The position numbers and the translations under genes were made by a program. A model generated the notes under the pieces. That model was given only the letters and a program-made list of their open reading frames with translations. It had not been told where the DNA came from and searched no databases. From contig CM077149.1 in assembly GCA_039583875.1 (NCBI GenBank), positions 20,969,194 through 21,033,193 on the forward strand: 64,000 nt of DNA. Direction: 5' to 3'. Positions 1,200-63,368 of the stretch are shown one piece after another; the first letter of the stretch is position 1; the number at the start of each line of letters is the position of its first letter. The DNA is from Platanthera guangdongensis (lineage: Eukaryota; Streptophyta; Magnoliopsida; Asparagales; Orchidaceae).

Positions 1200-1222
1200 T
1201 TCGTCGAACTCAGCTCGACGAA
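1200..1222. repeat. Perfect hairpin in LTR B (8-bp arms, 7-nt loop)
   Basis: TTCGTCGA at 1200-1207, loop ACTCAGC at 1208-1214, TCGACGAA at 1215-1222. It shows the same geometry as the hairpins in gag (4599-4822) and in the spacer (8280-8420). In the 3' LTR the matching unit has one arm substitution (TCGCCGA). Confidence 0.85.
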
Positions 1223-1343
1223 GGAAGTTGTGCGCTCGACGAATTATTTTCTGAGCTCGACGAACTTGGACCTCAAGTTCACAGCTTCTCAGGTCGACGA
1301 ATGCTAAATCTATACTCGACGATTTTTGTGCTCAGAGAATCTG

Positions 1344-1522
1344 TGTCGACACTTAGGGCTTGTGTCGACACCAGGCGATTTGTGTCGACACCCAGGATTT
1401 CAGTCGACACCAGCTTGTGTCGACACCAGAGGTTTTGTGTCGACACCTAGACCAATCTGTCGACACCATAGGAGTTGTGTTGACACCAAGATCAATCTGT
1501 CGACACCATTTTATGTCGACAC
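1344..1522. repeat. Array of GTGTCGACAC palindromes in LTR B
   Basis: About nine copies of the 10-bp self-complementary GTGTCGACAC or close variants, spaced about 19-22 bp. The same array is at 11879-12058 in the 3' LTR. The word is the one that dominates copy A's LTR. Confidence 0.85.
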
Positions 1523-2793
1523 AGTTTTTCATCAGATGCAGAGTATTTTGTCCAAGTCCAGAACTTTTCTCAGCTCGACGAAGTTTATTCTCAGCTCGAT
1601 GAATTTGGTTCTCTGCTCGACGAATAATGGTTGTCTGATATTGAAGATTGTCTATTCAATGAATGAAGACTGTCAGCTCGACGAACTCAGCGCAGCTCGA
1701 CGAATTCAAGACTCTGTTTGACGAATTCTGTTCTTCGATCGACGATTCCAGACAAGGTATTCTTCCGTTCCCGTCTCATTTCATGGCGCTGATTCCTGGA
1801 CAATTAATGACAGTTCTTCACAGAATACTACCGTTAGGATGCGCAGTTAATTCTGGATTATTTCATGCCGTTTTCCCATGGAAACAGTTGGCGAAATAAT
1901 TAATTGCTGCTTCCTTCCCAGGCCGTCTGTCATTACTGCTCGACATTCAAAAATTGGAATGCTCTCCATGACAGACAGAGATATACAGAAACTAGAAGAA
2001 ATTGAACAAGTACACAACACCAGAACATCTAGAACAACATAGACAGTAATTCAGACAACACAAGAAAAGGATTTCATTCTTGGCCCAGAGAGAAATTGAT
2101 CTAGAAGAAGAAGAACATTACATCAATATCAAGAGTCTTCTTCATCGGCTTTTGCTCAGGAGAACTTCAAAACAATACATTCATATCAGTTGCAAGAAGT
2201 TCCTGAAGAATTTCTCTGGACCTGGAATTCTAGGTCTTTGAAGACCTATCACCCTGAAGCAGTGCTCCAGTTTTCTTCCTGAACCATTCCACATCACAGG
2301 GGGAGCAAAGCTGCTAAACAACATCCATAAGTCTTCTTAGTTGACTTGAGAAAGAGAAGACCTCATCACCCTCTCACTCCACCTCTGTACAGGGTTTTAA
2401 TTCCCTTCAAAATTATTCTGGTTGCAAGTCTCCCACCAAAAGACTTGAGGGTTTGGTTTTTGGGAACCTGATCAAAACCCCATTGGTGCCAGGACACCTG
2501 ATCAACCCCTTCCTGCAGTGGATTCCTACCAGGGTGGTAGAAGAGTGGACTACCCAGATTTGGGGAACCACTATAGAATTCTTGTGTCGTCTGGTTGCTT
2601 TCTTTTCCTTTTTGTTATCTGGCCTTGCTCTGTGATTGTGCTGTGATTAGTCCTTTGCTGCTTTCTGGTTTATTGTATTTTCTGCACACACACATACACA
2701 CAAAAATACAATAGCAGTTGTAAAAGTTTTAAAATCACCATATACTCTATTCACCCCCCCATCTAGAGTATATCAGATCTAACTGCACTTTCA

Positions 2794-2808
2794 ATTGGTA
2801 TCAGAGGG
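2794..2808 (+). promoter_or_regulatory. Primer-binding site of copy B (initiator tRNA-Met)
   Basis: TGGTATCAGAG follows the LTR after two bases (AT). It is complementary to the 3' end of plant initiator tRNA-Met, the usual copia minus-strand primer. Confidence 0.9.
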
Positions 2809-2923: not shown

Positions 2924-5046
2924 ATGGCCCAAAATAAGGATTATACAAGCACAGACCTCCAGTGTGCAATCTTAACAAGTTTGCCATCTGGAAGGCAAGA
3001 ATCAGATTATATATGAACTCCATTGATGAGGATATTTTCTCTGTCATCTCAACAGGTGTTCCTCTAGCTCCTACAACCTTTGCCAGCACATTAACTAATC
3101 TGAGTGCAGTACCACCTCCAGACAACACTGAAGCCTATAAGAAAGCCAAGATGGCTGATGCAAAGGCTATGAATATTCTGGCCCAAACAATGTCAGATGA
3201 CATATTTCAGAAGGTGGCTGAGTGCACCTCAGCCAAGGCCATTTGGGACTCTCTCAATCAAATGGTAGCAGGCTCAGCTGATGAAAGAAAGGATAGAAGA
3301 TCCAGTCTCATTTCTCTCTATGAGAATTTCAAAAAGGATGAGACAGAATCAGTGGCTGAGATGTACAATAGATTAAGTTCAATTATTAGTGAACTCAAGA
3401 CACTTGACAAGGACATCACCTTAACTGAGGTGAATGATAAGATACTGATGTGTTTCCCCAGTTCATGGGACTCCAGAATCTGGCCAATCAAAGAAGCCAG
3501 AAGCCTCAATGAGATCTCAATAGAATCTCTGCTAGGCAAGCTGAAGTCATATGAGCAGCTTGTCAAATCAAGACAGGCAGCAGAACAGAAGGCAACTACA
3601 CCAGTTAGGAAGGAGCACAGCTTGGCCCTCAAAGCTTCTGAAGACAGTGAAACATCTACCTCCAATGAAGAGTTAATGAGCCTCTTTGCCAAAAGATTCT
3701 ACAAAATGGCAAGAAAGGATTTTAGAAGAAAATCATCCAGGCAGGATGATAAACCCAAATATGACAAGACACCAACTAAGGAGGTTGTGTGTTTTGGTTG
3801 CAGAAAACCAGGGCACTATATTTCAGAATGCCCAGAAAATCAGAAAAAGGACAAGGGCAAGGACAAGGATTCCAGAAGAAAACAAAGCAGCAGACCCTCC
3901 TCCAACAAGTATAAAAGGAAGGACAAAGGATTTGTTGCTGAGTCCTGGAGTGACACAGAAGAAGAAACATCCTCCTCTAGCTCCAGTGAAGAAGAGGAAG
4001 AAGCAAGATCCAAGGAGGTGTGCCTAATGGCAATAGATGCCTCCAGAAGCAACTATGGATCAGAAGAGGATTTTGAAGATGAATGTGCCTCAGACTCAGA
4101 GGCTGATCAGGTGATTTCCAGTTTTGATTTCAACTCTGATTTGTTTAAAGTAGAATTTAAAACTATGTGCATGGATTTAATAAACTCAGAGAAAGAGATA
4201 AAAACCCTGAGTACTAGACTAGAAAATCTAGAATCTGTCAGCACAGAAAACAGAAAACTAACTGACCAATTGACTCTAGCTAATGAATAGATAATCAAAT
4301 TAAAATCTGAATTATGTGAGGCAAAACAACTTGAGCAATCTCTCAATGGGAGAAGCCTCAAGCTGATGGATATCACAAGCACAGTAAATGCCAGATTAAA
4401 TAGGAGGCTGGGCTTGGGTGCTTCATCAGGTTTACCCCCCATAATAAAGAAGAATATACTTTCCACTCCCATAAAGTTTATCGCTGCTAAAGGAAAAGAG
4501 AAACTAACTGAAAAACCCAGATCAGAAAACAAGTCAAATCCCTTAGACTATAGCAACAAAAAATAGAAGAAAGCTGTCAAAAACCAAGTTCAGCAAAATT
4601 CGTCGAACTTAGATCGACGAAATCCTGCAAGATCGTCGAACCCCGATCGACGAACATTGAACACAAACTTCAGAAATAATTATTCGTCTTACTGCGATCG
4701 ACGAACTGTGTATGGTTCGTCGAGCAGAGGTCGACGAACGTGGGATGCAGAAAATGACCATGGTCATTTTCTGAGTGGAAGTCGACGACCTCAACCCCAT
4801 TCGTCGAACTCTGGTCGACGAACTTACAATAATTCGTCGATCCCAGAACGACCAAACATAAATAATTTCTCCTATAGAAATGTTAAAACAGCTAACAAGA
4901 CATTTAATCCAGTAGTTGATTGGATAATTCCACCTAGGAGATATCACCCACTAGGGTATAAGTCTCAACCTGCATTATCAGTCATTTCTAGCTTTTCTTT
5001 TCAACCAAACCAAGGACCCAAGGTAACCTGGGTCAAGAACAATTGA
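2924..5046 (+). pseudogene. gag: Copy B gag (capsid/nucleocapsid), disrupted
   Basis: The start is ATG at 2924 (MAQNKDY), which matches copies C and F. One base is missing near 2951 relative to C, so the rest reads in the next frame from about 2962. The capsid region carries the copia gag pattern (LYMNSIDEDIF, DERKDRRS, EMYNRLSSI). A CCHC zinc knuckle, CFGCRKPGHYISEC, starts at 3790 and is followed by a K/R-rich and an acidic serine-rich stretch. In-frame TAG codons lie at 4288 and 4564. The C-terminal part encodes repeated SSNxxRR peptides from the hairpin repeats at 4599-4822, then a conserved end (WIIPPRRYHP). The frame closes with TGA at 5044-5046. The product would coat the RNA in virus-like particles. 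Confidence 0.85.
4599..4822. repeat. Hairpin repeats inside gag coding sequence (copy B)
   Basis: Four perfect inverted repeats: 4599-4621, 4633-4653, 4716-4738 and 4800-4822. Each is (T)TCGTCGA, a 7-nt loop, then TCGACGA(A). The 21-nt core equals seven codons and is read as SSNxxRR or a close variant, so the DNA palindrome and the peptide repeat coincide. Confidence 0.9.
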
Positions 5047-5065
5047 GATTTATTTCCTAATGCTG
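5023..5065 (+). other. Gag-pol junction with splice-site-like ends (copy B)
   Basis: CCCAAG precedes GTAACC at 5023, a donor-like sequence. A pyrimidine-rich stretch ends in TGCTG at 5065, where copies C and F have TGCAG. Gag (frame of 5020) and pol (frame of 5066) are in different frames, and removing exactly this segment would join them in phase. At 43 nt it is shorter than normal plant introns, so this is only a candidate, and copy B has lost the acceptor AG. Confidence 0.35.
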
Positions 5066-8000
5066 GTACAAGTGAAGAACTGTCCAAGGCTAAGTCAGAC
5101 ATGGTACCTGGACAGTGGCTGCTCCAAGCACATGACTGGCAGCAAAGCAAATCTCACCAACTATCAATCCAAGCTAGGACCAAAGGTGATATTTGGAGAC
5201 TCAAAGAGTGGTCAGTCAGAAGGATATGGAAGAGTAAGCATTGGAGCAGTGACCTTCAAAAAGGTGATATATGTAAGAAGACTCAAACATAATCTTATAT
5301 CCATAAGTCAATTATGTGATGAAGGTTATCAGGTACATTTCAACTCTACCTCCTGTTCTATTATAAATGATAAAAACCAAACTGTTTTAATTGGACTTAG
5401 ACAAGGAAACATATATTTAGTAGATTTCATTTCTGCCACAACTGATATTTGTTTACTCAATATCTCTAGTAACCAAAATGAGTTATGGCACAAAAGGCTA
5501 GGACATGTAAACCTTAAGAACATATCTAGGTTATCTAAAGACAACCTTGTTAGAGGTTTACCTTCTGGTCCCTACAAGAAGGAAAGCCTATGCAGGGCTT
5601 GTCAACTAGGCAAGCAAACTAAAACTAGCTTCAAATCCATTAATAAAAGTGATTCACCTAGGATATTGTAACTGCTTCATGTGGATCTTTTTGGACCCAT
5701 TGCAGTACAAAGCCTAGGAGGGAAGTTTTACACCTTAGTTATTGTTGATGATTTCTCCAGATTCAGTTGGGTAGCCTTCCTGAGAGCTATGTCAGATACA
5801 TTCAAAGTTCTTACAGATTTTCTCAGGACCATACAGATTGAGTTCTCTACTCATGTTGCATTGATCAGAAGTGATCATGACACAGAGTTTGAGACTCTTC
5901 TTATGCATGAGTTCTGTGAGAAGGAAGGTATCGGACAGTGCTTCTCAACTCCTAGAACTCCCCAACAAAATGGGGTTGCTGAAAGGAAAAATAGGACACT
6001 CATTGAAGCTGAAGGTACATTGTTAGCAGATGCCTACATGCCTCTATCCTTTTGGGCAGAAGTTGTAAACACAGCTAACTATGTCCTGAACAGATGTCTT
6101 ATACATAAACTAAAACACAAGACCCCCTATGAATTACTTAAAGAAAAGAAACCTAAAATCACTTACTTTAAAGTTTTTGGTTGCATATGTTACATCCACA
6201 CTAATAACAAAAGATACATCAGAAAATTTGAGGCTAAGGCTGAAGAAGGGATTTTTCTAGGATATTCCCAAGTAAGCAAGGCCTATAGGGTTTTCAATAA
6301 ATCATCCCTTAAAATTGAAGAATCTGTCCATGTGTCTTTTGATGAAGCTAACATGTCTTATAAGGAGAAATACATTTCTACCAATAGTCCTTTGCAGGTT
6401 TCACCAATGTGTGAGTCTATGGATGGACTAAACCTTACCCAAGAGGTTCCAACTCATCCCACTCCACAGGCTGTTGAAGATAGTGAAGAAGAAATTCAAG
6501 AGGAAGTAATTGAACCTCCATCAACAGCCAGCACCATTCCTCAAGAGGAATTATTTGCAGAAGCTGTTGCTCAACCAACTCCACAAACTGATCTTGTCAC
6601 ACTTAGAGATCACCCCAGATCTCAAGTAATTGGGGACATTTCAGTTGGTGTACAGACAAGACATCAGCTCAATCAAGACTTGATGCATGCCTGTTTTCTC
6701 TCTCAAATTGAACCTCTCACCATCCATGAAGCTGAGCAAGATCCCCACTGGATTCTTGCAATGCAAGAGGAACTAAATCAGTTTGAGAGATGTAGAGTTT
6801 GAGATTTGGTTCCAAGACCCCATAACTACCCAGTCATTGGAACCAAATGGGTCTACAGGAACAAATTAGATGCAGAAGGGAACATAGTAAGGAACAAGGC
6901 TAGACTGGTTGCCCAAGGATATAGACAGGAAGAAGGAATAGACTATGACCAAAACTTTGCCCCTGTTGCAAGGTTGGAGGCCATTAGAATATTTCTAGCC
7001 TATGCAGCATACAAAAAGTTCAGGGTATTCCAGATGGATGTCAAGAGTGCCTTTCTGAATGGTGTACTTCAAGAAGAGGTTTATGTAGAATAACCTCCAG
7101 GTTTTATCTCTCTAACTCAACCCTCTTATGTTTACAAGTTGCATAAAGCTCTCTATGGTTTAAAGCAAGCTCCAAGAGCTTGGTATGAGACCCTAGCTAG
7201 CTTTCTTTTAGAGCATAAATTTACAAGAGGAACCATAGATAAAACCCTTTTTACTAGACATCATAAGGACCAAATCTTATTGGTACAAATATATGTGGAT
7301 GACATTATTTTTGGATCTACTGATCCCAAATTGTGCCAGAGGTTTGCTGACCTCATGCACTCCAAATTTGAGATGAGTAGCATGGGTGAGCTTTCCTACT
7401 TCCTTGGTCTCCAAGTGAAGCAGCTCCCTGATGGTATCTTCCTCTCCCAATCAAAGTATGCCAAAGAGCTTATTAAAAAGTTTGGGATGGGTGATGCTTC
7501 AGGAATGAAAACACCTATGGCTACAAATGCTGTTGTGGATTCTGATGCAGTAGGGAAACCTGCAGATCAGAAACATTATTGGGCAATTGTTGGATCCCTA
7601 TTATATTTAACAGCTAGCAGGCCTGACATAATGTTTGTCACATGTCTTTGTGCTAGATTCCAAGTTAATCCTAAAGAATCTCATCTTATTTTTCTAAAAA
7701 GGATTTTGAGATATATAAAGAGTTGTCCTAGTTTAGGACTCTGGTATCCTGCAGAGTCAGAATTTGAGTTAACTGGATACTCAGATGCTGACTATGCTGG
7801 ATGTAGGGTGGACAGGAAAAGTACCTCTGGAACTTGCCAGTTCCTGGGTATGAGACTTGTCTCTTGGTTTTGCAAAAAGCAGACATCTGTGTCTACATCA
7901 ACTGCTGAGGCAGAGTACATAGCTGCTGGCAGCTGCTGCTCACAGATGCTATGGATACAAAACCAACTCCTAGATTATGGTATCAACTTAAATAATTCAA

Positions 8001-8246
8001 CCTTATTTTGTGATAATACTAGTGCTATTGCTATAGCACAGAATCCAGTTCATCATTCTAGGACTAAACATATTGAAATAAGAAATCATTTCATTAGAGA
8101 TAATGTGGAAAAAAAAGAAAATTAACTTGATCCACATTCCTACTGATCTACAGAGAGCAGATATCTTCACCAAGCCCTTGGATGAGAAAACCCATCTGTT
8201 CTTTATAAATCAACTGGGAATGATTGATGGAGAAGAGTTAAATTAA
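5066..8246 (+). pseudogene. pol: Copy B pol (PR-IN-RT-RH), disrupted
   Basis: Domains in copia order: protease (WYLDSGCSKHMTG near the start), integrase zinc finger (WHKRLGH and CRACQLGK), integrase catalytic core (first Asp in HVDLFGP; SDHDTEF with VAERKN for the D-35-E pair), RT with KTPYELL and FGCICY upstream, palm YVDDIIFGS, and RNase H (YSDADYAGC, STAEAEYIAAGS, LFCDNTSA). In-frame stops lie at 5669 (TAT to TAA against copy C), 6800 (TGG to TGA) and 7091 (CAA to TAA). One extra A in the run near 8110-8116 shifts the last 45 codons, which close with TAA at 8244-8246. The product would process gag, copy the RNA and integrate the DNA. This copy is non-functional. Confidence 0.9.
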
Positions 8247-8631
8247 TTTCTGTCTGCATTCGACGAATTTTCTAGAGTTCGTCGAATTAGGGAAAGTTTG
8301 AGAGATTCTCGTCGAACGGAGATCGACGAATTCTCTGTGTGGAAACAATTTTCGTCGACTGGAGATCGACGAACCTTGTTTCAGAAACCATTTCGTCGAA
8401 CTAAGTTCGACGAACTGTTTTCAATTCTTCTGAATGGGTTCGACGAACTACTCTCATAAACCTTATTTCATCGATCTCAGTTCGAAGATTTGTCTCTTTT
8501 TCGTGGAACGGAGCTTGTCGATTCATATTCTGAAAATCTTATATCTAGGTTTTCTTCGACCTCCTTCCCGCGCTTTCAGTTCCTTTGCTCTTGATCGTCG
8601 TTTTCTCTGTAATCTTCTTTGCAGGTCATCA
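8247..8631 (+). promoter_or_regulatory. Copy B pol-ORF3 spacer with hairpins, weak TATA, splice-acceptor-like end
   Basis: The spacer holds several TCGTCGA-N7-TCGACGA inverted repeats between about 8310 and 8415. A weak TATA-like TATATCT is at 8540. The end is TTCTTTGCAG followed by GTC at 8625, seven bases before the ORF3 ATG at 8632. The pyrimidine-rich CAG/G resembles a 3' splice site. Copy C has the same stretch with CTG in place of CAG. This suggests separate expression of ORF3, which is inference. Confidence 0.5.
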
Positions 8632-11330
8632 ATGGCAATTCCTCCAGGAGCACTTGCAGCGATGAAGTTTGACGCAGCATTCTCAATGGACTTTGAGTCT
8701 TTCCAGCATTCCGATCCCATTTTCTGTATATCCTTGAATTACTGGAAGAACTGCATCTCAAAGACTTCATGACACGCAACATCAAGCTACACTCAACCGA
8801 GATCAGAGAATGGGTGTACTCTGCCGCAATTTCTGAAGATGGAAATCTGACAGGAACAATTGGAAACACTGTCGTTTCTCTGACCCCAGCAGTAATCTCT
8901 GAAATATTTGGTCTGATAAATGGAGAAGAAAACTTGGAAATGGACGCTGAGGAATATGCTGATATGCTGAAAGTCATGGGTTTCTCTGGCAACAACCCTA
9001 ATAAGCTTCTGAAGAAACAATTGTCCGTCGCTTATCAGTTTTTGGCTGACATTGTCTGGAAAATTCTAATGGGCAAGCACTCGGCGCACGACTACATCAC
9101 TCGCCATCAATTCCTGATCATGTGCGCAGTGCTCAACAAGCGTCAGGTTGATTGAGGCATGGTATTCTTTGACCTTATCAAGAAAAGGATTAGCAAGAAG
9201 GAAGTCTGCTACGGCAGAATCCTGGGGATTTTCCTCCAGGAAAAGGCCAGTGAATGTTTGGTCTCCCCGACCACATTCATCAACGCCAGCAAGCGCCTCA
9301 CCTGCGCCTTGTTTGGTCGATGGGAGAGGACAATCTCCAAACCCTCCAAGGGTTCCTCCTCCTCCATCAATGCTTCTGAGAGCACCAGGACCGTCAAGGT
9401 CACTCCCCACCCTGACTCCGAAGAGGTCATTCCCCCTACCAAATCTCTTCCCACTCCTCCTGCACCTCAACTGACTCCTCCTCAACATCAATCTCCACTG
9501 CCTGATCTTACACATATACCTACACCTCCAGTTTCCCGCACTGCAACACATAGTCCCTCACCCCCTCAATCCCCTCTTCCACCACACCTCTCCACCATTC
9601 CATCCTACACTATACCCACTGAACCACAACCTGTTCTGCCTCCCTTATCCCCTCCACATATTCTTCCTTCCTCCTCTACTATTCTTTATCCACCTATGGA
9701 TTCTTCCACCATCCCCACCATCATCTCTCTTCTGACTCCTCTTATTAAATCACTCATCACAGAGGCCATTACACCTCTGGTGAATTCCATTGATTCTTTA
9801 TCTGCCCAAATCTCAGCTCTCTCTTCTGCCCCCTCTTCAATCAGGGGCCTGGCTCCAGGTTCTCCTGAACCCAGGCAGTGGGAGATGCTCCATGATGAAG
9901 CTGTTGCAGCAGCTGCAGAAGTGGATACCGTTGATACAGATACAGATACTACAGATATAGTTGATTCAGTGCTTGATAATACAGATACAGTTACAGATAC
10001 AACAATCGATTTTATTCAATTCATGGAAACTGACAGTAGCTTTGATGAGTCAGTAGACTCAATATCAACTACTAGTGATTTCCTTATAAATCCCACAGTT
10101 AATTTATCTGCAATACTTCAGATCTTTGATCCTATATATATGAAGCTTCCTTCAGTAGAGATTGCTAAGCCATATTTGGCTATTGTCCAGTATACTTCTC
10201 CAGCAAATCCAGCAGTTGCCAGGCAACTTTGTGCATCCTTTGCTGCTCCCTCTGCTGTTCCAACTTCTGTGTCTATCCCAGACATCTGCCCTGTCCCAGA
10301 TTTTGTCATGGATGATTCTCCCATGCTTGATCTGGATGAGCTCATTCTGGCAGACATTGAGGAAGAGAACAAGGCAGCAGCTGCAAGTTCTGTCTCTACT
10401 GTTGTTGAACCTTCACCCTCTGAACCTTCTATTCCCCCTCAAGACAAACCTCTTACCATTCCTGATGCCACTCTGAGGAACCTGAATGCTTTGTATGATA
10501 ATCCTCAGAGCTCAAATTCTGATGATGATGATGATGAATCAGATGAGGAGGCTGCTAAGAAGAGAAAGAAGTTGCTCTCTAAGAAAAGGAAGGCTCCTCC
10601 TCCTCCTCCTGCTCCCAAGCCTAATCCCACTGCAGACACTCCATATTATATTATGCATAATGTTGCTCCTTACAAAGGGATGCCTGCATGGATGTGGTTA
10701 TCTAAGAACCAGCAAAAAGAGAGGAAGAGGAGTAGGAGATACTCTCCTCCCCCAGTTCATAGGTACAGAAAGGATCCCCCTCCTCCTCCTCCTCCAGCAG
10801 CAGGTGCCTCTGGCTCAAGCTCTCAAAGATCTGCTCCTATTCAAACCTATCAGAGACAAATAGGGAGATCCTCTGGTAGTAGTCAGCCAAGGCCACCATC
10901 TTCAAGCAGTTAACACCATCAACAACTACAGCAGCAGCCCCAGGAATGTAAGAAACAGGAAGCTGAAAGGCCCTATTCCCCTCCTGAAGATCCAGAAATA
11001 GCCAATACAGCCAGAATGGCAATATTCCAAGAAATCATTGGCTTATGTCTAATCAACAAAGCTAAAGCTGAAGGCAAGGACACAACAGGCTTAACCACTA
11101 TGTCTCAGTACAGAAGAGATGAACTGAAAAGATTTAGGAAAGCAAACAAGCTATTAAATGTTGATGAATACATGAATCTTCACCTAGAAGCAGTTGTCCC
11201 CAGAGCCACTTCACTAAACATTATAGGGGCAGCTGACTTGACTATGACCAAGGCTGAAGCTTCAGATCCCAATAGGGAAATTATTTTCAAGAAGCCAGGA
11301 GAAAAAGCACCAGAAGTCAAGCCAAAATAG
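8632..11330 (+). pseudogene. Copy B third ORF (post-pol ORF), disrupted
   Basis: The start is ATG 8632, chosen because MAxxxxxLAAMKFDA also opens the ORF in copy C at 21908. One base is missing near 8720-8730, and from 8769 one frame runs to TAG at 11328-11330, interrupted by TGA at 9153 and TAA at 10911. The N-terminal about 220 residues are a conserved globular-looking block (IKEWVY-like, LLKKQLSVAYQFLAD, GKHSAHD, GRILGIFLQ, CALFGRW). Next is a long P/S/T-rich linker, an acidic-then-basic patch (DDDDESDEEAAKKRKK), polyproline, and a conserved C-terminus (EAVVPRA, PNREI). No signal peptide or membrane helix is visible. It is homologous to ORF3 of copies C and F but not obviously to that of A and G. 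The function is unknown. Confidence 0.8.
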
Positions 11331-11540
11331 AAGAAATCAGAGAAGTAATGTTGTGTTTTGTTTCATTTCTGCTTCTGTTTCAGTCTATATCTTTCATTAA
11401 AATAAAGCCAGTATGTATATATATATCTGTTGCATATGTTGTAAATTCTCTGCCAGATATATCTCTTTATTTTGCTTTGTTTTTCTGTTTGTTCTTTGCT
11501 TGGAGTTTCTGTTAGTGACCTCACCCAAATAGGGGGAGAT
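11331..11540 (+). promoter_or_regulatory. Copy B 3' noncoding and polypurine tract
   Basis: AT-rich stretch ending in AAATAGGGGGAGAT (11527-11540) directly before the 3' LTR. This is the plus-strand primer tract, in the same form as in copies A and C. Confidence 0.9.
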
Positions 11541-13329
11541 TGTTGGATCCCTAGTTGATTTGGGATAGGTTCACTGACTTAGGATGTGACCCATCATGTA
11601 TAGTCTGGGTCAAGTTTGTGTCTTAGAGTCTAGGACAGTCCTCTATCTCAACTTCAGATGGACCAGCCTTCTTCAAGATCTTCAGGAACTCCAGATCTAT
11701 CAGATTTGCAGACTAAGTGAAATGAGTTCGACGTTCGCCGAACTCAGCTCGACGAAGGAAGTTGTGCGCTCGACGAATTATTTTCTGAGCTCGACGAACT
11801 TGGACCTCAAGTTCACAGATCCTCAGGTCGACGAATGCTCAATCTGTACTCGACGATTTTTGTGCTCAGAGAATCTGTGTCGACACTTAGGGCTTGTGTC
11901 GACACCAGGCGATTTGTGTCGACACCCAGGATTTCAGTCGACACCAGCTTGTGTCGACACCAGAGGTTTTGTGTCGACACCTAGACCAATCTGTCGACAC
12001 CAGAGGAGTTGTGTCGACACCAAGATCAATCTGTCGACACCATTTTGTGTCGACACAGTTTTTCAGCAGATGCAAAGTATTTTGTCCAAGTCCAGAACTT
12101 TTCTCAGCTCGACGAAGTTTATTCTCAGCTCGATGAATTTGGTTCTCTGCTCGACGAATAATGGTTATCTGATATTGAAGATTGTTTATTCAACGAATGA
12201 AGACTGTCAGCTCGACGAACTCAGCGCAGCTCGACGAATTCAAGACTCTGTTCGACGAATTTTGTTCTTCGATCGACGATTCCAGACTAGGTCTTCTTCC
12301 GTTCCCGTCTCATTTCATGGCGCTGATTCCTGGACAATTAATTGCAGTTCTTCATAGAATACTACCGTTAGGATGCGCAGTTAATTCTGGATTATTTCAT
12401 GCCGTTTTCCCATGGAAACAGTTGGGGAAATAATTAATTGCTGCTTCCTTTCCAGGCCGTCTGTCATTACTGCTCGACATTCAAAAATTGGAATGCTCTC
12501 CATGATAGACAGAGATATACAGAAACTATAAGAAATTGAACAAGTACACAACACCAGAACATCTAGAACAGCATAGACAGTAATTCAGACAACACAAGAA
12601 AAGGATTTCATTCTTAGCCCAGAGAGAAATTGATCTAGAAGAAGAAGAAGAACATTACATCAATATCAAGAGTCTTCTTCATCGGCTTTTGCTCAGGAGA
12701 ACTTCAAAACAATACATTCATATCAGTTGCAAGAAGTTCCTGAAGAATTTCTCTGGACCTGGAATTATAGGTCTTTGAAGACCTATCACCCTGAAGCAGT
12801 GCTCCAGTTTTTTTCCTGAACCATTCCACATCACAGGGGGAGCAAAGCTGCTAAACAACATCCACAAGTCTTCTCAGTTGACTTGAGAAAGAGAAGACCT
12901 CATCACCCTCTCACTCCACCTCTGTACAGGGTTTTAATTCCCTTCAAAATTATTCTGGTTGCAAGTCTCCCACCAAAAGACTTGAGGGTTTGGTTTTTGG
13001 GAACCTGATCAAAACCCCATTGGTGCCAGGACACCTGATCAACCCCTTCCTGCAGTGGATTCCTACCAGGGTGGTAGAAGAGTGGACTACCCAGATTTGG
13101 GGAACCACTATAAAATTCTTGTGTCGTCTGTTTGCTTTCTTTTCCTTTTTGTTTTCTGGCCTTGCTCTGTGATTGTGCTGTGATTAGTCCTTTGCTGCTT
13201 TCTGGTTTATTGTATTTGCTGCACACACACATACACACAAAAATACAACAGCAGTTGTAAAAGTTTTAAAATCACCATATACTCTATTCACCCCCCCTCT
13301 AGAGTATATCAGATCTAACTGCACTTTCA
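11541..13329 (+). repeat. 3' LTR of copy B
   Basis: TGTTGGATCC to TTTCA, 1789 bp, collinear with the 5' LTR including the palindrome array. It differs by about 2 percent by eye and by a 3-bp GAA copy-number change near 12640. Confidence 0.95.
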
Positions 13330-13334
13330 AGCTT
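13330..13334. repeat. Right target-site duplication of copy B (AGCTT)
   Basis: Identical to 1002-1006. After it the reading frame of copy A's third ORF resumes in phase. Confidence 0.95.
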
Positions 13335-14064: not shown

Positions 14065-14210
14065 TGTTGGGTACATTGGTTTAAATGTACCTGATTTGAA
14101 GAATCCTCACCCTACTCAATGATATACATCAAAATGTATTTGATGTATTTTGAGTTGCCTTGTGCAGGTTAAGTATTTTGCAGGAAAGATGAAAAAGTTT
14201 CTAAGTACAT

Positions 14211-15199
14211 GTGTCGACACCCAGAGAGAAAGTGTCGACACTTAAGAAGACTTGTGTCGACACCCAGGCAAGCAGTGTCGAAACTTGGAGTATTTGTGTC
14301 GACACCAAGGATGCAGAGTCGACACCAGACAGAAAGTGTCGACACAAGGAGCTGTGTCGACACTCAATGAAGAAAAGTCCAGTGAAGCAGTGTCGACACT
14401 TAGCAGTTGTGTCGACACCCAGTGAAACTGTGTCTACATCAGAAAGTGTCGACACTTGGAGGCTGTGTGACACTCAGCAAAAGTCAGCAGAGTCTAAGTA
14501 TAAGTGTCGACAGAAGAAAGAATGTGTCGACACTCAGCAGAAGACTCAACACTTGAAGAAAGTGTCGACACAAGAAAGAATGTGTCGACACTCAGCTGAA
14601 GACTCAACACTTGAAGAAAGTGTCGACACAAGAAAGAATGTGTCGACACTCAGCAGAAGACTCAACACTTGAATAAAGTGTCGACACAAGGAGCTGTGTC
14701 GACACTTAGCAAAGTTCAACAATATTCTAAGTACAAGTGTCGACACAAAGGAGAAGTGTCGACACTCAGCCAAAAGTGTCAACAGAAGAAGAATGTGCCG
14801 ACACAAGGAGCAGTGTCGACACTCAACAAGTATCAACACAGAAGGCATGTGTCGACACCAAGAAGATGTGTCGACACTGAACAAGTTCAACACATGAAGA
14901 TGTGTCGATACTTACAAGAATTCAACGAAGTGCTGAAGAACAAAGTGTTGTGTCGACACTCAATATCAGTGTCGACACATGAAGAAGAAGCTGTGTCGAG
15001 AAGTGCATTCTACAACACAAGGAGTTGTGTCGACACACAATATCAGTATCGACACATGATGAAGAAGCTGTGTCGAGAAGTCAATTCTACAACACAAGGA
15101 GTTGTGTCGACACCTTGTAGGCTAGTGTCGACACTTAGTCAACTTGTGTCGACACTTAGTCTATAAGTGTCGACACTTAAAGACAGACAGTCTCGACAC
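14211..15199. repeat. One-kilobase array of GTGTCGACAC palindromes
   Basis: About 30 copies of the self-complementary 10-mer GTGTCGACAC plus variants, typically 20-30 bp apart with A/G-rich spacers. Some longer units repeat almost exactly (14555-14680). It lies directly upstream of the TATA box. It is not a CRISPR array: the repeats are too short and the spacers are alike. Confidence 0.9.
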
Positions 15200-15333
15200 T
15201 TTCAGACAGTTACAGATTTTTCAAGAACTGACTGGATGACTTGACAGCTGCCATTCCAGCCGGTCTACTACACCTGTCAGAGTTGTCAGAAATCAGTTAT
15301 GAACCGGATCAGCCGGTTACCATGAAGAAGGCC

Positions 15334-15341
15334 TATAAATA
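15334..15341 (+). promoter_or_regulatory. TATA box of copy A LTR
   Basis: GCCTATAAATAGGC, a strong plant TATA box about 135 bp downstream of the palindrome array. Transcription would start near 15365-15375. Confidence 0.75.
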
Positions 15342-15734
15342 GGCTTATACTGTCTACAGAAACAGACGATCAACACATCAACTAATACAAAGAAGATCTA
15401 GCTATTCATTGAAGAATCTAGTGAAGTTCTAAGAAGTTGGAGAGAGAGAGCTCCATCCAAGAAGACAGCCGTTGGAACCAGGCTGAGAAGAAGGGTTCAG
15501 ATTTTGTTCTGAATCTTAAGTAGCAGAGATCAAGGATCAACTGCAGAGGAGATCAATCTTATTATGTTTTACATTCAAGAAGCTTTGAAGAAAGCCAATT
15601 CAGTTTGATCTCAACTGAGTTCTTCCAAGAACTCATCAAGAAACTCACAACACTTCTCTCTTTTCTCTGAGTTGTAGAGTTTACATTTTTGTATTCATAT
15701 TATCTTGTAGGATCCTTAGAGATCTGAGTTTGTA

Positions 15735-15965
15735 AGCCTGTAATTATAAAGGCTGAGTGTAGGGCCTGAGTGCCTGAGTGTAGGAGATTTGAATCTCTGA
15801 GTGTAGGCCTGTTGTGGCTGAGTGTAGGCCTTGGTGGCTGAGTGTAGGCTTTGTGAAGAAGATGAGTGTAGGCTTTGTGAAGAAGCTGAGTTGTAGGGCC
15901 TTAGGCCTGAGCTGTAGGAACCTGATTGAGGTTCTGAGTGTAAGATCTGAGGATCTGAGATAGTG
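15735..15965. repeat. GCTGAGTGTAGG-type repeats in the LTR A transcript region
   Basis: Several copies of GGCTGAGTGTAGG and relatives. A similar module (TTATAAAGGCTGAGGTAGG) recurs in the LTRs of E (38100-38260) and G (40365-40460). Confidence 0.7.
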
Positions 15966-16452: not shown

Positions 16453-16530
16453 TACAAATGCTGTTCCACCTCCATCAGGAACAGATGCTGATACAAATGC
16501 TGTTCCACCTCCATCAGGAACAGATGCTGA
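16453..16530. repeat. 39-bp tandem duplication in copy C gag
   Basis: Two adjacent exact copies, 16453-16491 and 16492-16530, adding 13 codons in frame (NAVPPPSGTDADT twice). It sits where B and F have extra capsid sequence. Confidence 0.9.
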
Positions 16531-18035: not shown

Positions 18036-18220
18036 GTCAGAGCTCTGGAAATTCTTTCAAGGGCAAATCAAAATCCAATCCTAAGGGTCCTTCATCCCAA
18101 ATCTTTAATCCTTATACTGAATGGATTATACCTCCAAGGATATATCATCCTGAAGGTTATAAGAGTCAACCTGGGATGTCTTTTATTTCAGAGTTTAAAG
18201 GTTATCAACCTAGGCCCAAG

Positions 18221-55170: not shown

Positions 55171-56682
55171 TGTTGGAACCCCACCTATGTTTAGGGTTGA
55201 TTTGAGCTAGGTTGACTATTAGGATTGTTAGATGACCCAATATGTAGAGTCTAGGGTCATAGGTTTTTATCAGGGTCAAGGTAAGTCAACAACCTAGATT
55301 GATTGGTTCTCACCTTCAGAAGACTTAGAGACAGAAGACCTCCAGAGAAAAGTAGTTTTTTAAGAGAAAGCAAGTCATTCGAAGATTAGCTGAACAGAGC
55401 TCAATGATCATCAATCTCAGATCGACGAACTCAGGTTTATTCTCTGAGTTGTGTTCGACGAAAGTCTAGTAGAGATCGACAAACTTTGATGTCACCTCAG
55501 TCGTTTCATCTCGACGAAAGACTATCTCTGTTCGGCAAACTTGGAGCTCAGTTTGGCAAGTTGATTTTCTGGTTAACGATCTTGGAGCTCAGCTCGACGA
55601 AGGAGAGGTTTCAAGTCGACGAACTTGGATCTCAGGTCGACGAGTTTTGCTGAGTTCGACTAATTTATCCCAGTTTCAATTCGATGAATTTGGATCTCAG
55701 TTCGACGAGAATTTACTGAGTTCGACAAATTTTCTCTCAGGTTCAGTTCGACTATTTCTCTATTTAATTTCAGTTCGACTAAGGCAGAAGATTTTCAAAT
55801 TATATTACAATATGCCTGTAATGCTCTGATAATTAATGTATAATATTCTTATGAATATAGTCGTTCCATGGTAGTATTAATTATGATTTTCGCAGAGTTA
55901 TTACCTGGCTTATTTTATTAGGACTGTTGAGGAAATTCATTAAAGACAAATTCTAGCCGTTCAACTCCCAGAATTTTTGCAGTCAGTAAAGGAAAGGAAT
56001 TCAAAATTCAAAGGATGAAATCTGCATGGAATATATAAGGATTATTTTCAAAAGATTGAAGTAATTTTTAGATAGCTGTGACAGAAAGAATTTACAAAGA
56101 ACTGAAAGAAGAATAACTCTCATACAACTCAAGTTCTTCATCAGTTTTTGCTTCAGGGCTTTCAAGAGACAATCAATCAACATCTGTCTAAAATTTTCCC
56201 AAAGATTAACAAGCCATCTGAAGGCCTATACCCTGAGCAAAGCTTCCATTCTAATGAACTATTCTACATCTCAGGGGGAGCTTTGACAACAACAGCAATC
56301 CATTATTCCTCTCAGAACATTGAGAAAGATAAAACAAAATCAAATTTCTTTTTACTCCACTGTAAAAGGTTTTCTAACTCCCTTCAAATGTTATCCCTTT
56401 CGTTGTTAAGTCTCCTAATCAAAAGACTTAGTTTATTTTTTGGGCACCCGATCAAAAGCTCAAAGGGTTGCTACATCTCCCTTGAAAATAGGTCTTGTGG
56501 TGACAGGGCACCTGAGCCAAAATATGTGGTGGTAGGGCAGCTGATCAAAAACATGTAGTTGATTCCTATTAGGGTGGTAGTAGAGTGGATGTACCCAGGT
56601 TTTTGGGGAACCACTATAAATTTCCTTGTGTTGTCTGGTTTGCCTTTACTTCTTTATTTTGTTGTGCTGTGATGTATATATT

Positions 56683-56749
<67 letters not shown>

Positions 56750-56961: not shown

Positions 56962-59027
56962 ATGGCACAAAATAAAGTGTACTCAAGCACCAGACATCCA
57001 ATGTGCAATCTTAATAAGTTTGCACTTTGGAAGGCAAGGATTAGGCTGTATATGAATTCAATTGATGAAGATATCTATAATTCTATCTTAACAGGTCCCC
57101 ATACACCAACTACAACAACAAGCACAAGTGTAGTTCTACCACCTGAGTGGACTGATGCTCAGAAGAAGCTGAAAATTACAGATGCCAAAGCCATGAACAT
57201 TTTGGCACAAACAATGTTTGATGATATATTCAAGAAAGTTGTTGAATGTTCTTCAGCCAAGGATATCTGGGATTCCTTAAATGCTATGGTTGGTGGTTCA
57301 ACAGATGAAAGAAAGGATAGAAGGTCCCACTTGATTTCTCAATATGAGAATTTCAAGAAGGTTGAATCTGATTCAGTTACTGAAATGTACAACAAACTCA
57401 GCCACATCATCAATGAGCTGAAGACTCTAGACAAGGACATCCCATTAACAGAGATCAATGGCAAGATCCGTATATGCTTCCCTAGCACATGAGACTCTAG
57501 GATCTGGCCAATCAAGGAGGCCAGATGCCTAAATGAGATTTCTACTGAGTCATTATTAGGCAAGCTCAAGTCTTATGAGCAGCTTATCAAAACCAGGGAG
57601 GCAGTTAAACAAAAGACATCTATGTTAGGAAGGAAGGAGCAAAACATTACCTTCAAGGGATTCGTGGAATCAGAGGCACAACCAGACAATGAAGACCTAC
57701 TGAGTCTTCTGGCAAAAAGATTCTACAAAATGGCTAAGAAGGACTTCAGGAGAAGGTCAACCAAAAATGAAGACAAGCCAAGGTATGACAAGACTCCTAT
57801 TAAGGAAATTTTTTGTTATGGATGCACGAAGCCATGACACATTAAGCCAGAATGTCCAGAGGCTCAAAAGAAGGACAAGAGAAAGGAGGATGAATCTAAG
57901 AAGAACTCTAGCAAACCCTCCTCCAACAAATTTAAGAAGAAGAATGAGAAAGGATTTATGGCTGATACTTGGAGTGACTCAGAAGAAGAAATTTCATCCA
58001 GTTCTATTGAGGATAAAGAAGAGGCAAAAGCCAGAGTGATCTGCTTGATGACAATCAATGGCTCTTGCAGCAACTCAGAAACTATTGATTCAAAAGTAGA
58101 AAACTCAAGATCTGAATCAGAAGAGGACCAGGTAATAACATCTTTTGATTTTAATTCTGACCATATTAAAATTGAATTCAAACTTCTATGCAATGACTTA
58201 ATTAAATCAGAGAAGGAAATCAAACTTCTTAGAGAAAAAAAAAATTGAATATGACAATCTGTTTTCTGAAAATATCAAACTGAAAGATGAATTAGACTTA
58301 GCTTATGAACAAATTATTTCATTAAAAACTAAATTAAATGAGACTAAAGAATTTGAAGAATCCCTTAATGGGAGAAGCATCAAATTGATGGACATCACAA
58401 GCACAGTGAATGCCAGACTTAATGACAAACTGGGCTTATGAGCTTCATCAAGTCAGCCTCCTCTTCTTAAGAAAAATATTTTTTCCACCCCCATTAAATT
58501 TGTTTCTGCTCAAGAAAAAGGAAAATAAGTTTTACAACTTACAAATAAAGATACTGAAATCTTGGCAAACAATAAATCAAAGAAAAAGAAAAATCTTAAT
58601 AAAAATAATGTTCAACATTTTTCGTCAAACCAAGATCGACGAAATGTATGCAGTTCGTCGAACTCAGATTGACGAACTATGAACACAAAATTTAGATATA
58701 ACTATTCTTCTAACAACGATCGATGAAATAAATATGGTTCGTCAAACCGCGATCAATGAAATTGGGGTGGAGAAAATGAATACTTTAATTCTTTGAGTAG
58801 AGTTCGACAAACTAATCACTATTCGTCGAACGCAGATCAACAAACTTACTGCAATTCGTCGAACCCAGTTTTCTATAATAGAAACTTAAATTCATTTTAG
58901 AATTTCAAGAAACCTAAAACCTTTAATAATCCATTTACTCAATGGATAATTCCACCTAGAAGATTTAGACAACCTAGAATTTTCTTTCATTTTCAGTTAT
59001 AAATTTGAGAGGAATCAAGGACCCAAG
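56962..59027 (+). pseudogene. gag: Copy F gag, multiply disrupted
   Basis: ATG 56962 (MAQNKVYSS). The capsid is intact in outline (LYMNSIDEDIYNS, DAKAMNILAQTMFDD, TDERKDRRS, EMYNKLS). TGA at 57490 replaces Trp. The CCHC region (CYGCTKP-stop-HIKPEC, 57814-57857) has TGA for its Gly. An extra A in the run near 58236-58245 shifts the frame. Further TGA (58439) and TAA codons follow. The C-terminal SSNxxRR-type hairpin region (58620-58860) is present but worn. The conserved end (WIIPPRR, GPKVTWVKN) leads to the gag-pol junction. Confidence 0.8.
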
Positions 59028-59066
59028 GTTACCTGGGTCAAGAACATCTAATCTATTTTCATGCAG
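59028..59066 (+). other. Candidate mini-intron at the gag-pol junction (copy F)
   Basis: CCCAAG/GTTACC and CTATTTTCATGCAG/GTG, 39 nt apart. Here gag and pol are in the same frame, separated by TAA inside this segment. Removal again joins codon boundaries exactly (59027 to 59067). Confidence 0.35.
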
Positions 59067-59723
59067 GTGATGAACTATGCTACAACAGAGCAATAATGGT
59101 ACTTGGATAGTGGGTGTTCAAAACATATGACAGGCAGTAAACGAAATCTAACTTATTACAAGTCAAAGCTTTTACCAAAGGTGAACTTTGGAGACTCCAA
59201 CTGTGGCCAAAAAAAGGATATAGGAATGTCAAAGTTGGAGCTGTCGCCTTCAAGAAGGTTGAATTTAAGTGGTCTCAAGTATAACCTGATATCCATAAGC
59301 CAATTTTGTGATGAATGTTATCAGATATCATTTAATCAATCTTGTTGTACTATTACTTCTAACAAAAACAAAATTGTTTTTAAATGAATTAGAAAAGGTA
59401 ATATTTATGTAGTAAATTTTAAGTCTGCCATTTCAGAAATTTGTTTATTTAATCAGATTAGTAATACTAATGACTTATGACATAAAAGACTAGGACATGT
59501 AAATTTAAGAAATATTGCTAAACTATCTATGGACAACCTTGTTAAAGGATGTCCTTCTGGCCCATACAAGAAAGAAAGTCTCTGGAGGGCTTGTCAATTA
59601 TGCAAGCAAACTAAAAATAGTTTTAAATCAATTAATAAGAGTGATTTGCCCAGAATTTTGTATTTTCTACACATGGATCTTTTTGGAGCCATTATTGTAC
59701 AATGTTTGGGAGGGAAATCTTAC

Positions 59724-59732
59724 ACTCTAGTT
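59724..59732. repeat. TSD ACTCTAGTT of the 746-bp insertion
   Basis: Identical to 60479-60487. Pol sequence is collinear with copies B and C once one copy and the insert are disregarded. Confidence 0.85.
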
Positions 59733-60478
59733 TTTTATTTGATGTATTAGTTAATGTATGTTTCTGCTAGAGAGAAGGAGATTTTTGGAATTTCAGCTGC
59801 TTCGTGTGTGAGATTATAGTGATTAAGGTTTTTTTCCTTGACTGTTGATTCCGTTGGAGCCACCTAGAAGGAGAGATTAGGAAGTGTTAGTTTACTAAAC
59901 CCATGAACAGTGGAAGTGACTTGTTTGCTTTGATATTTCGTGAAGCCACTTGTGTGTGAGAGAGTGAAATTTAGGTTGTTAGGTTTGTGGCAAGTCTAGA
60001 GTGAGTAATTTCGTGGAACCACTTTTGTGTTAGAGTGAGCAAAGTTTCTCCTTGGTGCCCGTATGCGATAACGGTTGACCTCAGAGCGGGAGATCAAATG
60101 TGATGAGGAAATACTCGCGTGATCGCCGTCGATTTCAAATACGGAAAGACGGTTCTTTTCGTGGGTAACTTGTTTCTAACTCTTCCTTTGTGAGTGTCTA
60201 CATTTTCTCTTAGGTTAACTAGAATCATTGTTGGAATTTACCAGAGTTTTGTCAGTGAATGCTACGTCGAAACTCCAAATAGAAACGTATTTGGAGTTCA
60301 CGATTTCCATTTTGCTACAACAAGGGGAACATAACGAAAGTTACGAACTTCCTTTCCGAATTTAGAATTGAACAAGTAGTTCCAGAAAATTCATTTTTTA
60401 AACAAATAATTTTTTTTGTGTTTTCCAAAACTCAAAGTTGTTTAATTTCAAAGTCTACGCAATGCTCACTCGAATTAA
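59733..60478. mobile_element. 746-bp insertion in copy F integrase with 9-bp TSD
   Basis: Foreign sequence flanked by ACTCTAGTT at 59724-59732 and 60479-60487. The integrase reading resumes directly after it. There is no long ORF. The ends show no clear terminal inverted repeat. The left end is T-rich (TTTTTTATTTG), which on the minus strand reads as CAAATAAAAAA, like a polyadenylation signal plus short tail. Candidates are a retroposed transcript or SINE-like copy on the minus strand, or a non-autonomous MULE, whose TSDs are about 9 bp. Confidence 0.65.
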
Positions 60479-62981
60479 ACTCTAGTTATTGTAGATGACT
60501 TCTTTAGATTCACTTGGATGTTCTTTCTAAGAAACAGGTCAGATAACTTTAAAGTTCTTACAGACTTTCTTAGGAGCATAAAGATTGAGTACTCTACTCC
60601 AGTTGTATTGAACAGAAGTGATCATGGTACTGAGTTTGAATCTTTTCTTATGCAAGAATTTTGTGAGATGGAAGGTATCATGCATTACTTCTCTGCTCCT
60701 AGAACTCCTCAACAAAATTGGATAGCAGAACAAATAGAACCCTTATTGAAGTCGCAGGGACATTGCTTGCAGATGCTTACTTGCCCCTATCCTTTTAGGC
60801 AGAGGCTGTAAGCACAACAAATTATGTTCTGAATAGAAGTTTAATACATAAACTTAAGTATAATACTCCTTATGAATTGCTTAAAGGGAAGCAACCTAAA
60901 ATAAATTATTTTAGAGTATTTGGTTGTAGATGTAATATTTACAATAATGACAACAAACATCTTAGAAAGTTTGAAGGCAATGCTATAGAGGGAATTTTTC
61001 TTGGATATTCCCAAGTTAGCAAGATTTATAGGGTATTTAACAAATCAACTTTAAAAATGGAAGGGTTAGTACATGTAAATTTTGATGAAGCTAATATGTG
61101 TTACAAGGAGAAGGATTCTTCTACCAGAGATGCATTGCAGATACCCTTTTTGTGTGAGAAATTGGATGACTTAAACCTCACCCAATAGGTTACATTGCAT
61201 CCCCCTCTCAGACTGATGAAGAGAGTGAAGAAGAAATTGTTGGAACAGTTGAACCAACAACATCAAACATAATTCCACAAGAGGAATTAATTCCCCAAGC
61301 TATTGATGAACTAACTCCTCCTACTGATTTTGTCACACTTAGACATCATCCTATATCTCAAGTGATTGTAGACATATCAGTTGGTGTGAAAATAAGGAAT
61401 CAAATCAACCAAGATTTGATGCATGCTTGCTTCATATCTCAGATTGAACCTCAATCCATAAAAGATGCAGTGCAATATCCCCACTGGATTATTGCAATGC
61501 AAGAGGTGCTCAATCAATTTTAGAGATACAGAGTTTGGGATTTAGTTCCAAGACCCAAAGACTACCCAGTAATTGTAACTAAATGAGTCTATAGGAATAA
61601 GTTGGATGCTCAAGGATCAATTGTAAGGAACAAAGCAAGATTGGTAGCTCAAGGCTATTCACAAGAGGAAGGAATTGATTATGACCATACCTTTATTCAT
61701 GTTGCAAGGCTAGATGCTATCAGAATATTTCTTACACATGCAGCATACAAGAAAATCAAAGTCTACCAAATGGATGTCCAAAATGCTTTTCTTAATGCTG
61801 AACTCAAAGAGGAAGTCTATATAGCGCAACCACTAGGTTTTATCTCTCCAACTCATCCCTCTTTTGTATTTAAGTTGCATAAAGCTCTCTATGGTTTAAA
61901 GCAAGCTCCAAGAGCTTGGTATGAGACCCTAGCTAGCTTTCTTTTAGAAAATAAGTTCATTAGGTGCATTGTAGATAGGACTTTGTTTACTATGCATCAT
62001 AAAAACAAAATTTTGATAGTACAAATATATGTAGATGACATTATTTTTGGCTCTACTGATTCCAAACTATGCAAAAGGTTTTTTGACTTGATGTATTCCA
62101 AGTTTAAAATGAGTAGCATGGGTAAGCTTTCCTACTTCCTTGGTCTTCAAGTGAAGCAATCCCCTGATGGAATTTTCATCTCCCAATCTAAATATGCTAA
62201 GGAGCTAATTAAGAGATTTGGGATATCTTATGGCTGAGCTATGAAAACACCCATGACATCCAATGCTGTGATTGACTCTAAAGAACAGGGAAAGCCAGTT
62301 GATCAGAATACATATAGGGCTATTGCTGGGCCCTTGTTATATCTCACAGCTAGTAGGCTAGATATAATATTTGCTAGATGTCTTTGTGGTAAGTTCCAGA
62401 TGAACTCTAAAGAATCTCATCTAATTTTACTAAAAACGATTTTGAGATATTTAAAGGGTTGTCCAAATCTAGGACTCTGGTATCCAACTGAGTCAGAATT
62501 TGAATTAACTGGATTCTCAGATGCTGACTTTACTGGAAGTAGAGTTGATAGAAAGAGCGTATCAGGAACATGCCAGTTCCTTAGTGATAGGCTTGTGTCT
62601 TGGTTTTGTAATAAACAAACATTTGTGTCAACTTCAACTGCTAAAGCTGAATATATAGCAGCTGGTAGTTGTTGTTCATAAATTTTGTGGATTCAAAAGC
62701 AACTCCTGGATTTGGGTCTCAATCTAAATAATTAAACAATATTTTGTGATAGTACCAGTACAATTTCCATTGCACAAAATCCAGTGAATCATAGTAGGAC
62801 CAAGCATATAGAAATTAGACATCATTTCATTAGAGATTATGTGGACAAAAATAAAATTAACCTTGTCTTTATCTCTACTGATTTATAAAGAGCATACTTC
62901 TCCACTAAGCCTTTAGATGAGAAGAAACATTTGCTTTTCCTAAATCAACTAGGCATGATAAATGGGGAAGGCTTAATTTAA

Positions 62982-63368
62982 TTTTTTGTTCTGAGTTCAA
63001 CGATTAGGACAAAGTTTGTCGAACGGAGATTGACGATCTGTGAAGTCTTCATGAAGAGTTCGTCGAACTGATATCGACGAATTTTTCTTTGTGAGACTAT
63101 TCGTCGAATGGAGATCGACGATTTTGTTTTAGAAAATATTTCATCGAACGGAGATCGACGATATGTTTTCTCTCCTTCCAACTTAGATCGACGATCCTAT
63201 TTTATATTTTGAGAATTTCATCGAACAGAGTTCGAAGTTTGTGTTTCTCGTTGGACAGAGTTCGACTTTTCGTCTTCTGAAATCTTATATCTAAGTATTC
63301 ATCGAACTCAATCCCATGCTTTCTTATTCCCTCGCACTTGATCTTCATCTTGTTTTTCAAGGAAAACA
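62982..63368 (+). promoter_or_regulatory. Copy F pol-ORF3 spacer with hairpins
   Basis: TCGTCGAA...TCGACGA hairpins, partly decayed, lie between 63000 and 63195 (for example with loops CTGATA-like and ACGGAGA). TTATATCTAAG near 63283 matches TTATATCTAGG in copy B before ORF3. Confidence 0.5.

Follow-up and report, generated by a model that had tools for sequence, protein, structure and literature searches.

The stretch analysed here, 64,000 nucleotides of the orchid Platanthera guangdongensis (contig CM077149.1, positions 20,969,194 to 21,033,193; hereafter the window), consists of copia retrotransposons nested in one another and carries many short inverted repeats. A preliminary description proposed one hairpin architecture with a loop of exactly 7 nt for these repeats, with selection on a folded RNA or DNA structure or on a dimeric protein site. 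The elements were designated by letters. By their sequence marks, B, C and I are Sirevirus-like (I by its poly-C signal only), G, E and A are partly so, and D is a copia element of another clade, distant from B, C and I. The inverted repeats form arrays that are a variant of the palindromic repeated-motif (RM) boxes of Sireviruses, in which the spacing is fixed and wider, copies occur inside gag, coordination extends over the whole element, and a distant copia element has the motif too; the heptaloop itself is not what is new. On balance, these Sirevirus-type arrays probably act at the DNA level, as clustered dyads that a putative sequence-specific DNA-binding protein, probably a dimer, would recognise.

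Perfect closed stems with arms of at least 7 bp and loops of 0–25 nt were counted with the (TA)n run at 56675–56746 masked; left unmasked, this run raises the counts at even loop lengths. The whole window gave 31 stems with loop 7, 31 with loop 3, 27 with loop 13 and 25 with loop 24. The two long terminal repeats (LTRs) of D supplied 13 of the 31 loop-7 stems. Outside them the counts were 21 for loop 9, 19 each for loops 10 and 12, 18 for loop 7 (13 of which were TCGTCGA/TCGACGA) and 17 for loop 5, so that a universal 7-nt loop was not borne out. With 7-base arms, each loop length from 0 to 30 exceeded the maximum of 30 dinucleotide shuffles (loop 7: 44, shuffle mean 5.5, maximum 9, before masking of (TA)n).

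The 7-nt spacing is fixed for TCGTCGA-N7-TCGACGA in B, C, I and D, and not as a general architecture. Among 53 exact TCGTCGA sites, D included, the next exact TCGACGA lay at gap 7 in 28 and at the runner-up gap 14 in 4. With up to 2 mismatches, outside the LTRs of D and for gaps of 0–21, gap 7 reached 39, gap 14 reached 28 (TCGACGA repeated directly every 21 bp contributes to this count), gap 12 reached 11 and the others 7 or fewer. In the D 5' LTR gap 7 was not the top (gap 3, 16; gap 17, 12; gap 7, 11). The hairpins were found as described at 1200–1222 (8-bp arms and a 7-nt loop; the single full N7 unit of the B 5' LTR array), 4599–4822 (four perfect units), 8309–8329, 8351–8373, 21677–21705 (11-bp arms) and 23394–23414 (7-bp arms). 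Three others were parsed differently: in the third unit of 8310–8415 (8393) pairing continues inward and the loop is shorter than 7 nt; at 37081–37103 the perfect stem has 9 bp and a 5-nt loop, the 11-bp version containing an A-C mismatch; and at 39630–39658 it has 13 bp and a 5-nt loop. The stems of E and G stand in fixed 29-bp units with loop parses of 5, 7, 9 and 11, their inner pairs varying between units, and the GTGTCGACAC arrays of the A and B LTRs have loops of 5 to 19 nt. The diversity of arms between families had been overstated, since the 7-bp arms are common to B, C, D and I; E and G do differ, their consensus arms diverging at four aligned positions, each changed on both arms.

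In the TCGACGA group, spacer position 2 was C in 17/17 gag, 13/16 linker, 14/17 LTR and 9/10 D 5' LTR units, and position 6 was G in 17/17, 15/16, 15/17 and 9/10, respectively. The dyad therefore extends into the spacer across one usually non-pairing position. The unit is most simply described as a pair of G-N-TCGACGA-W half-sites in inverted orientation with about 3 bp between them, and the "7-nt loop" is a spacer of about 3 bp plus the flanking bases of the half-sites. In the LTRs of C and I the right half-site stays TCGACGA and the left is often TCnnnGA, so that many units lack a full stem.

These counts bear on the possibility that the selected object is a set of RNA stem-loops in the transcript, for packaging, translation or dicing into small interfering RNAs. 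Alignment A1 comprised 33 hand-picked N7 units from gag, linker and LTR, with up to 4 mismatches allowed; it contained no unit of D and omitted most of the LTR units that were one-sided as well as some of the weaker ones from gag and linker, a selection that favours pairing. Across its 8 inner pairs no double change was found, in units chosen for motif likeness in which a single double change was nevertheless admissible, and the outermost pair flipped (A-U 13, U-A 13). Alignment A2 comprised 21 units. A-C mismatches outnumbered G-T mismatches in 80 TCGACGA-group units (30 to 18, omitting 8 "other" units of 88 with 4 and 2), in 13 E units (8 to 7) and in 8 G units (7 to 4; E and G together 15 to 11, weak or cross-family rows excluded). 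TCGACGA half-sites persist partnerless, and the LTR, gag and linker siblings keep identical letters, whereas pairing alone would permit any. Paired arm changes were seen between E and G, with double changes at 5 pairs in 30 cells and a covariation of 0.363 (shuffled 0.181, sd 0.023; slid at most 0.078); as two families are involved, this amounts in essence to a single comparison. The RNA-folding z of 14 array segments ranged from -5.83 to +0.12: five segments, one of them the LTR array of C, had z of -3.96 or lower, and the D segment (0.09) and the I LTR segment (0.12) folded no better than shuffles, so that the suggested RNA folding held for part of the arrays. Small-RNA hotspots at maize Sirevirus palindromes also fit an RNA function (Bousios et al. 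2016, as described in PMC10760457 and PMC5311732). The lack of a G-T excess and of core double changes, together with the kept partnerless half-sites, argues for sequence-specific DNA recognition over RNA folding. Selection on RNA is thus weakened and no more than that, since decay after insertion would dilute the wobble signal; we regard it as rather unlikely, and the dimeric protein site, offered earlier as an alternative, fits better.

The arrays lie in both coding and spacer DNA, as had been noted: in B and C they stand in the gag frame and in the linker between pol and env. They follow pol in B, C and I, and in B and C they also precede env. The gag unit reads Ser-Ser-Asn-x-Asp/Gly/Ala-Arg-Arg, just before the gag/pol frame change. 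Unit spacing in gag is 33/51/33/51/33/33 in both B and I and 33/51/33 in C, and the units have therefore changed in place. Codon choice in the arrays departed from that of the preceding gag. In B, Ser was TCG in 11/17 codons of the array and 0/69 before it, and Arg was CGA in 13/17 and 0/29; the corresponding values were 10/18 and 0/60, and 9/11 and 0/27, in C, and 8/17 and 0/43, and 5/9 and 0/18, in the decayed I, where a frame change precedes the gag array and the codons were read in the repeats' own frame (all p values 2e-3 or below).

Among 12 related gags, similar C-terminal peptide repeats were present in P0001 and P0004 (Platanthera) and P0010; none were seen by eye in the more distant P0008, P0009, P0012 and P0016, and the other five look partial or chimaeric, without the C-terminal region. 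A search for further gag C-termini of this kind returned only the query itself. A library search on Sirevirus, gag and a repeated motif gave PMC2829016 and a general review, and the excerpts consulted do not mention a gag-internal array. What appears to be new is the presence of orthologous RM arrays within gag coding sequence, with Ser and Arg codons absent from gag upstream of them.

The arrays concentrate CpG. The observed/expected ratio (o/e) of CpG was 1.3–2.2 in the arrays of B, C, I and D and 0.01–0.06 in gag/pol of B, C and I, which are nearly CpG-free outside the arrays (2962–8240 in B, 16331–21275 in C, 57001–62900 in I); GpC was normal there and CHG was not generally depleted. The B gag open reading frame (ORF) of 1326 bp has 0 CpG. 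The ratio was 1.31 in the B 5' LTR array and 0.25 in the remaining LTR, 1.88 in the B gag array and 0.01 in the preceding gag, 1.97 in the B linker array, and 1.29 in the I LTR array versus 0.18. Out of 85 CpG in the 8745-bp interior of B, 51 lay in the two arrays (551 bp) and most others at 8545–9544, just downstream. The internal stretch of C up to D had 75, with 57 in its two arrays, and I had 76, of which 38 fell in its two arrays and 24 in a segment interrupting pol. This interruption (59735–60479, about 740 bp) is unlike the surrounding element. The interior of D had an o/e of 0.54, and D and H are ordinary copia elements in this respect (0.37–0.59). CpG-dense arrays in elements with almost CpG-free gag and pol appear to be new.

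Dispersal and CpG content also bear on a neutral origin, in which an accidental palindrome spread and was homogenised by tandem duplication, slippage and conversion. The LTR arrays are tandem and their copies plainly co-amplified, and the 41-bp unit of D is present in 9.5 copies with 92% matches, as such a process would have it. The gag and linker units are, however, dispersed and mostly carry the variant of their own element, the gag spacing is orthologous (B, I, partly C), CpG-dense arms persist although gag and pol are nearly CpG-free, and half-site and spacing recur in the distant D. A neutral origin is therefore unlikely, in agreement with the earlier suggestion of selection beyond plain tandem duplication.

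Coordination across each element was visible in the base just outside TCGACGA, counted at sites with at most 1 mismatch and with both arms pooled. This base was A in 32/42 B sites and 25/34 I sites, and T in 36/40 C sites. The A:T counts for B and C were 12:3 and 1:14 in the LTR, 9:1 and 1:11 in gag, and 11:2 and 1:11 in the linker (Fisher tests, p 1e-4 to 3e-4 per region, values whose strength and independence are overstated by the descent of the sites from one another). At the protein level, this change replaces Thr/Asn by Ser behind Arg-Arg in gag. A flanking position dominated by A in B and by T in C, alike across LTR, gag and linker, appears to be new. The occurrence in another copia clade was also upheld, the LTR array of D being filled by the TCGACGA half-site. 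Reverse transcriptase–ribonuclease H identity of D to B, C and I was 32–35%, compared with 76% between B and C, 76% between B and I, and 61% between B and G. An LTR array in D with the half-site common to B, C and I appears to be new as well.

Under the DNA-level reading, a protein would bind the half-sites, probably as a dimer, and the outcome could be transcription or escape from silencing. The LTR arrays precede the TATA box wherever one can be made out and would form an enhancer-like block; those at the end of gag and in the linker precede pol and env and may bring the same protein to the interior of the element. TATA-like boxes were found about 70–250 bp downstream of the LTR arrays of A (15334), D (23834), G (39934 and 43422, for both G arrays) and I (56032). 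Several points weigh against this reading, besides the descent of the sites behind the Fisher tests and the choice of A1 units by motif likeness. The same TATA scan found none downstream of the arrays in B or C, and E has only a weaker TATAAAGG (7 of 8) more than 650 bp off. The E array shows no CpG contrast (0.40 and 0.44). The linker of I breaks the A/T pattern, its right arms having T in 5/6. A 10.5-bp helical phasing of the core spacing was not clear (unique spacings, P 0.24), the RNA fold of several array segments is more stable than that of shuffled sequence (z to -5.8), and no binding factor is known for the arrays. E also has TATAAAA within its array and again towards the end of the LTR.

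Auxin response factors (ARFs) have a plant dimer site with a 7-bp spacing, TGTCNN-N7-NNGACA (an inverted repeat termed IR7). Inverted TGTCNN pairs at 7 or 8 bp numbered 0 in six arrays. ARF dimers canonically bind IR7/8, whose geometry is alike (PMC10690724), while the same source gives TGTC as the invariable ARF core and the half-site here is CGTCGA; ARF sites are very improbable.

The link drawn earlier to Sirevirus LTR palindromes held, RM boxes being the closest known feature. RM boxes are on record from 13 Sireviruses, where they have short spacers, form CpG islands and lie in the LTRs and ahead of env (Bousios et al. 2010, PMC2829016), and the B and C arrays have dyad symmetry, at least 8 copies, and positions in the LTR and the linker upstream of env. 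Like RM boxes, the arrays are short, high-copy, dyad-symmetric and CpG-bearing, in LTR and pre-env linker, with one consensus per element for both places (PMC2829016). Unlike them, they have a spacer of 7 nt (3 if the flanking C and G are counted), compared with 0 to about 4 nt as we interpret the published consensus column; they lack the CGG-CCG core of 12/13 published RM elements (the exception is Tnd-1); and they occur inside gag and in the non-Sirevirus copia D, while RM boxes were stated to be Sirevirus-specific and absent from other copia elements (PMC2829016). Maize Sirevirus palindromes are likewise clustered in the cis-regulatory region of the LTR, with a different motif, CACCGGACNNNGTCCGGTG (PMC10760457, PMC5311732). 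No common binding factor could be named for Sirevirus palindromes in 2010 (PMC2829016), and none is named in the later excerpts consulted. Searches on TCGACGA with promoter gave nothing relevant among the matches listed, and those on copia LTR palindromes, convergent LTR motifs and orchid Sireviruses gave nothing on such arrays among the matches listed.

The closest functional analogy is the target motifs of VANC in VANDAL elements, short arrays that differ between related elements, co-evolve, and can occur in an unrelated element (AT9TSD1), as the arrays here do in D (Hosaka et al. 2017, PMC5735166). VANDALs are DNA transposons, unlike the copia elements of the window, no VANC-like protein was identified here, and the word "palindrome" is absent from the main text on VANC motifs (PMC5735166). 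By this analogy, a trans-acting factor, element-encoded or captured from the host, might mark the whole element through LTR, gag and linker. Its specificity would have shifted between B and C, most dispersed sites exchanging the same single base although gag amino acids changed with it, D would ride on the same factor, and the arrays would be left as the main CpG-methylation-sensitive switch after CpG loss in gag and pol. This extended scenario is speculative and distinctly unlikely as a whole.

The B LTRs (1006–2794 and 11540–13330) are 97.7% identical, with AGCTT on both sides of B; those of D (23139–24367 and 30278–31506) are 97.2% identical, with GCTAC as flanks, and the D insertion apparently splits the env-like region of C. 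I starts before 56961 and ends after 63343, and E, G and A are present as LTRs and fragments. D gag was 94% identical to a Platanthera zijinensis protein across 92% of its length, and B gag 62–72% identical to P. zijinensis proteins over part of its length. The polypurine tract (PPT) AGGGGGAG followed by AT/TG at the 3' LTR, a Sirevirus mark, was found at 11532 (B), 14056 (A) and 33515 (C), and not for I, E and G, whose 3' junctions are missing or were not found. The poly-C signal TTCACCCC lay near the LTR end at 2750, 13287, 16167, 35003, 38498 and 56798 (B twice, A, C, E, I); the scan found none for G, and D had neither mark in the same scans. An ORF of 584 aa after pol in B (9159–10913) is an env-like candidate with no Pfam match, and a related sequence is present in C; such an ORF is an optional feature of the Sirevirus genus. 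Rfam and tRNA scans of the window gave no matches, and NCBIfam gave below-cutoff transposase matches in two pol ORFs and none in two other ORFs. A viral-contig scan found no relative of the B reverse transcriptase; a pattern scan of viral contigs hit seven with one exact site apiece.

The array cores are TCGACGA, TGTCGACA, TGTCGAGACA and GTTGAGTGA (Table 1). In E and G units the right arm is often preceded by YCARY (TCAGC, CCAGT, TCAAC), and in C LTR units by CTCAG, a similarity despite different arms that suggests common ancestry of the arrays. The B LTR (1006–2794) is composite, with a GTGTCGACAC block like that of the A LTR and TCGACGA blocks on either side. At 14068–16300 the PPT-preceded LTR of A passes directly into the leader and gag of C; its RM type is unlike that of the C 3' LTR, and the C 5' LTR is therefore seemingly missing. 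Upstream of the E LTR, at 35599–36068, a AGGGGGAG-like PPT occurs seven times, multiple PPTs being a feature of Sireviruses.

Table 1. Positions of the inverted-repeat arrays in the window.
Array	Position	Strand	Composition
B 5' LTR	1194–1745	+	TCGTCGA/TCGACGA sites, GTGTCGACAC palindromes 1343–1521, then TCGACGA sites
B gag frame	4599–4854	+	S-S-N-x-[DG]-R-R repeats, upstream of gag/pol frame change
B pol-env linker	8258–8521	+	
B 3' LTR (counterpart of B 5' LTR)	11728–12279	+	
A LTR	14211–15209	+	GTGTCGACAC palindromes; TCGA-core spacing most often 18–22 bp
C gag frame	17863–18043	+	DRRS variant
C pol-env linker	21492–21758	+	
D 5' LTR	23329–23766	+	41-bp tandem unit, four TCGACGA/TCGTCGA half-sites, one pair at N7
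D 3' LTR (counterpart of D 5' LTR)	30468–30905	+	
C 3' LTR	33696–33981	+	right half-site alone kept in several units
E LTR	36443–37445	+	29-bp units, GCGTTGAGTG-N9-CACTCAACGC
G LTR	39230–39765	+	29-bp units, GTGTCGAGA-N11-TCTCGACAC
I LTR	55379–55781	+	TCGACGA right half-sites; left halves mostly non-complementary
I decayed gag frame	58621–58876	+	33/51/33/51/33/33 spacing as in B
I downstream of pol	62997–63268	+	

The copies embedded in gag offer a clean test: where a nucleotide motif in coding DNA overrides codon choice and varies between elements together with its non-coding copies, an explanation that dispenses with sequence-specific recognition is difficult to find. The half-site common to the distant element D points to a factor acting in trans, and it offers a narrow half-site with which that factor may be sought.

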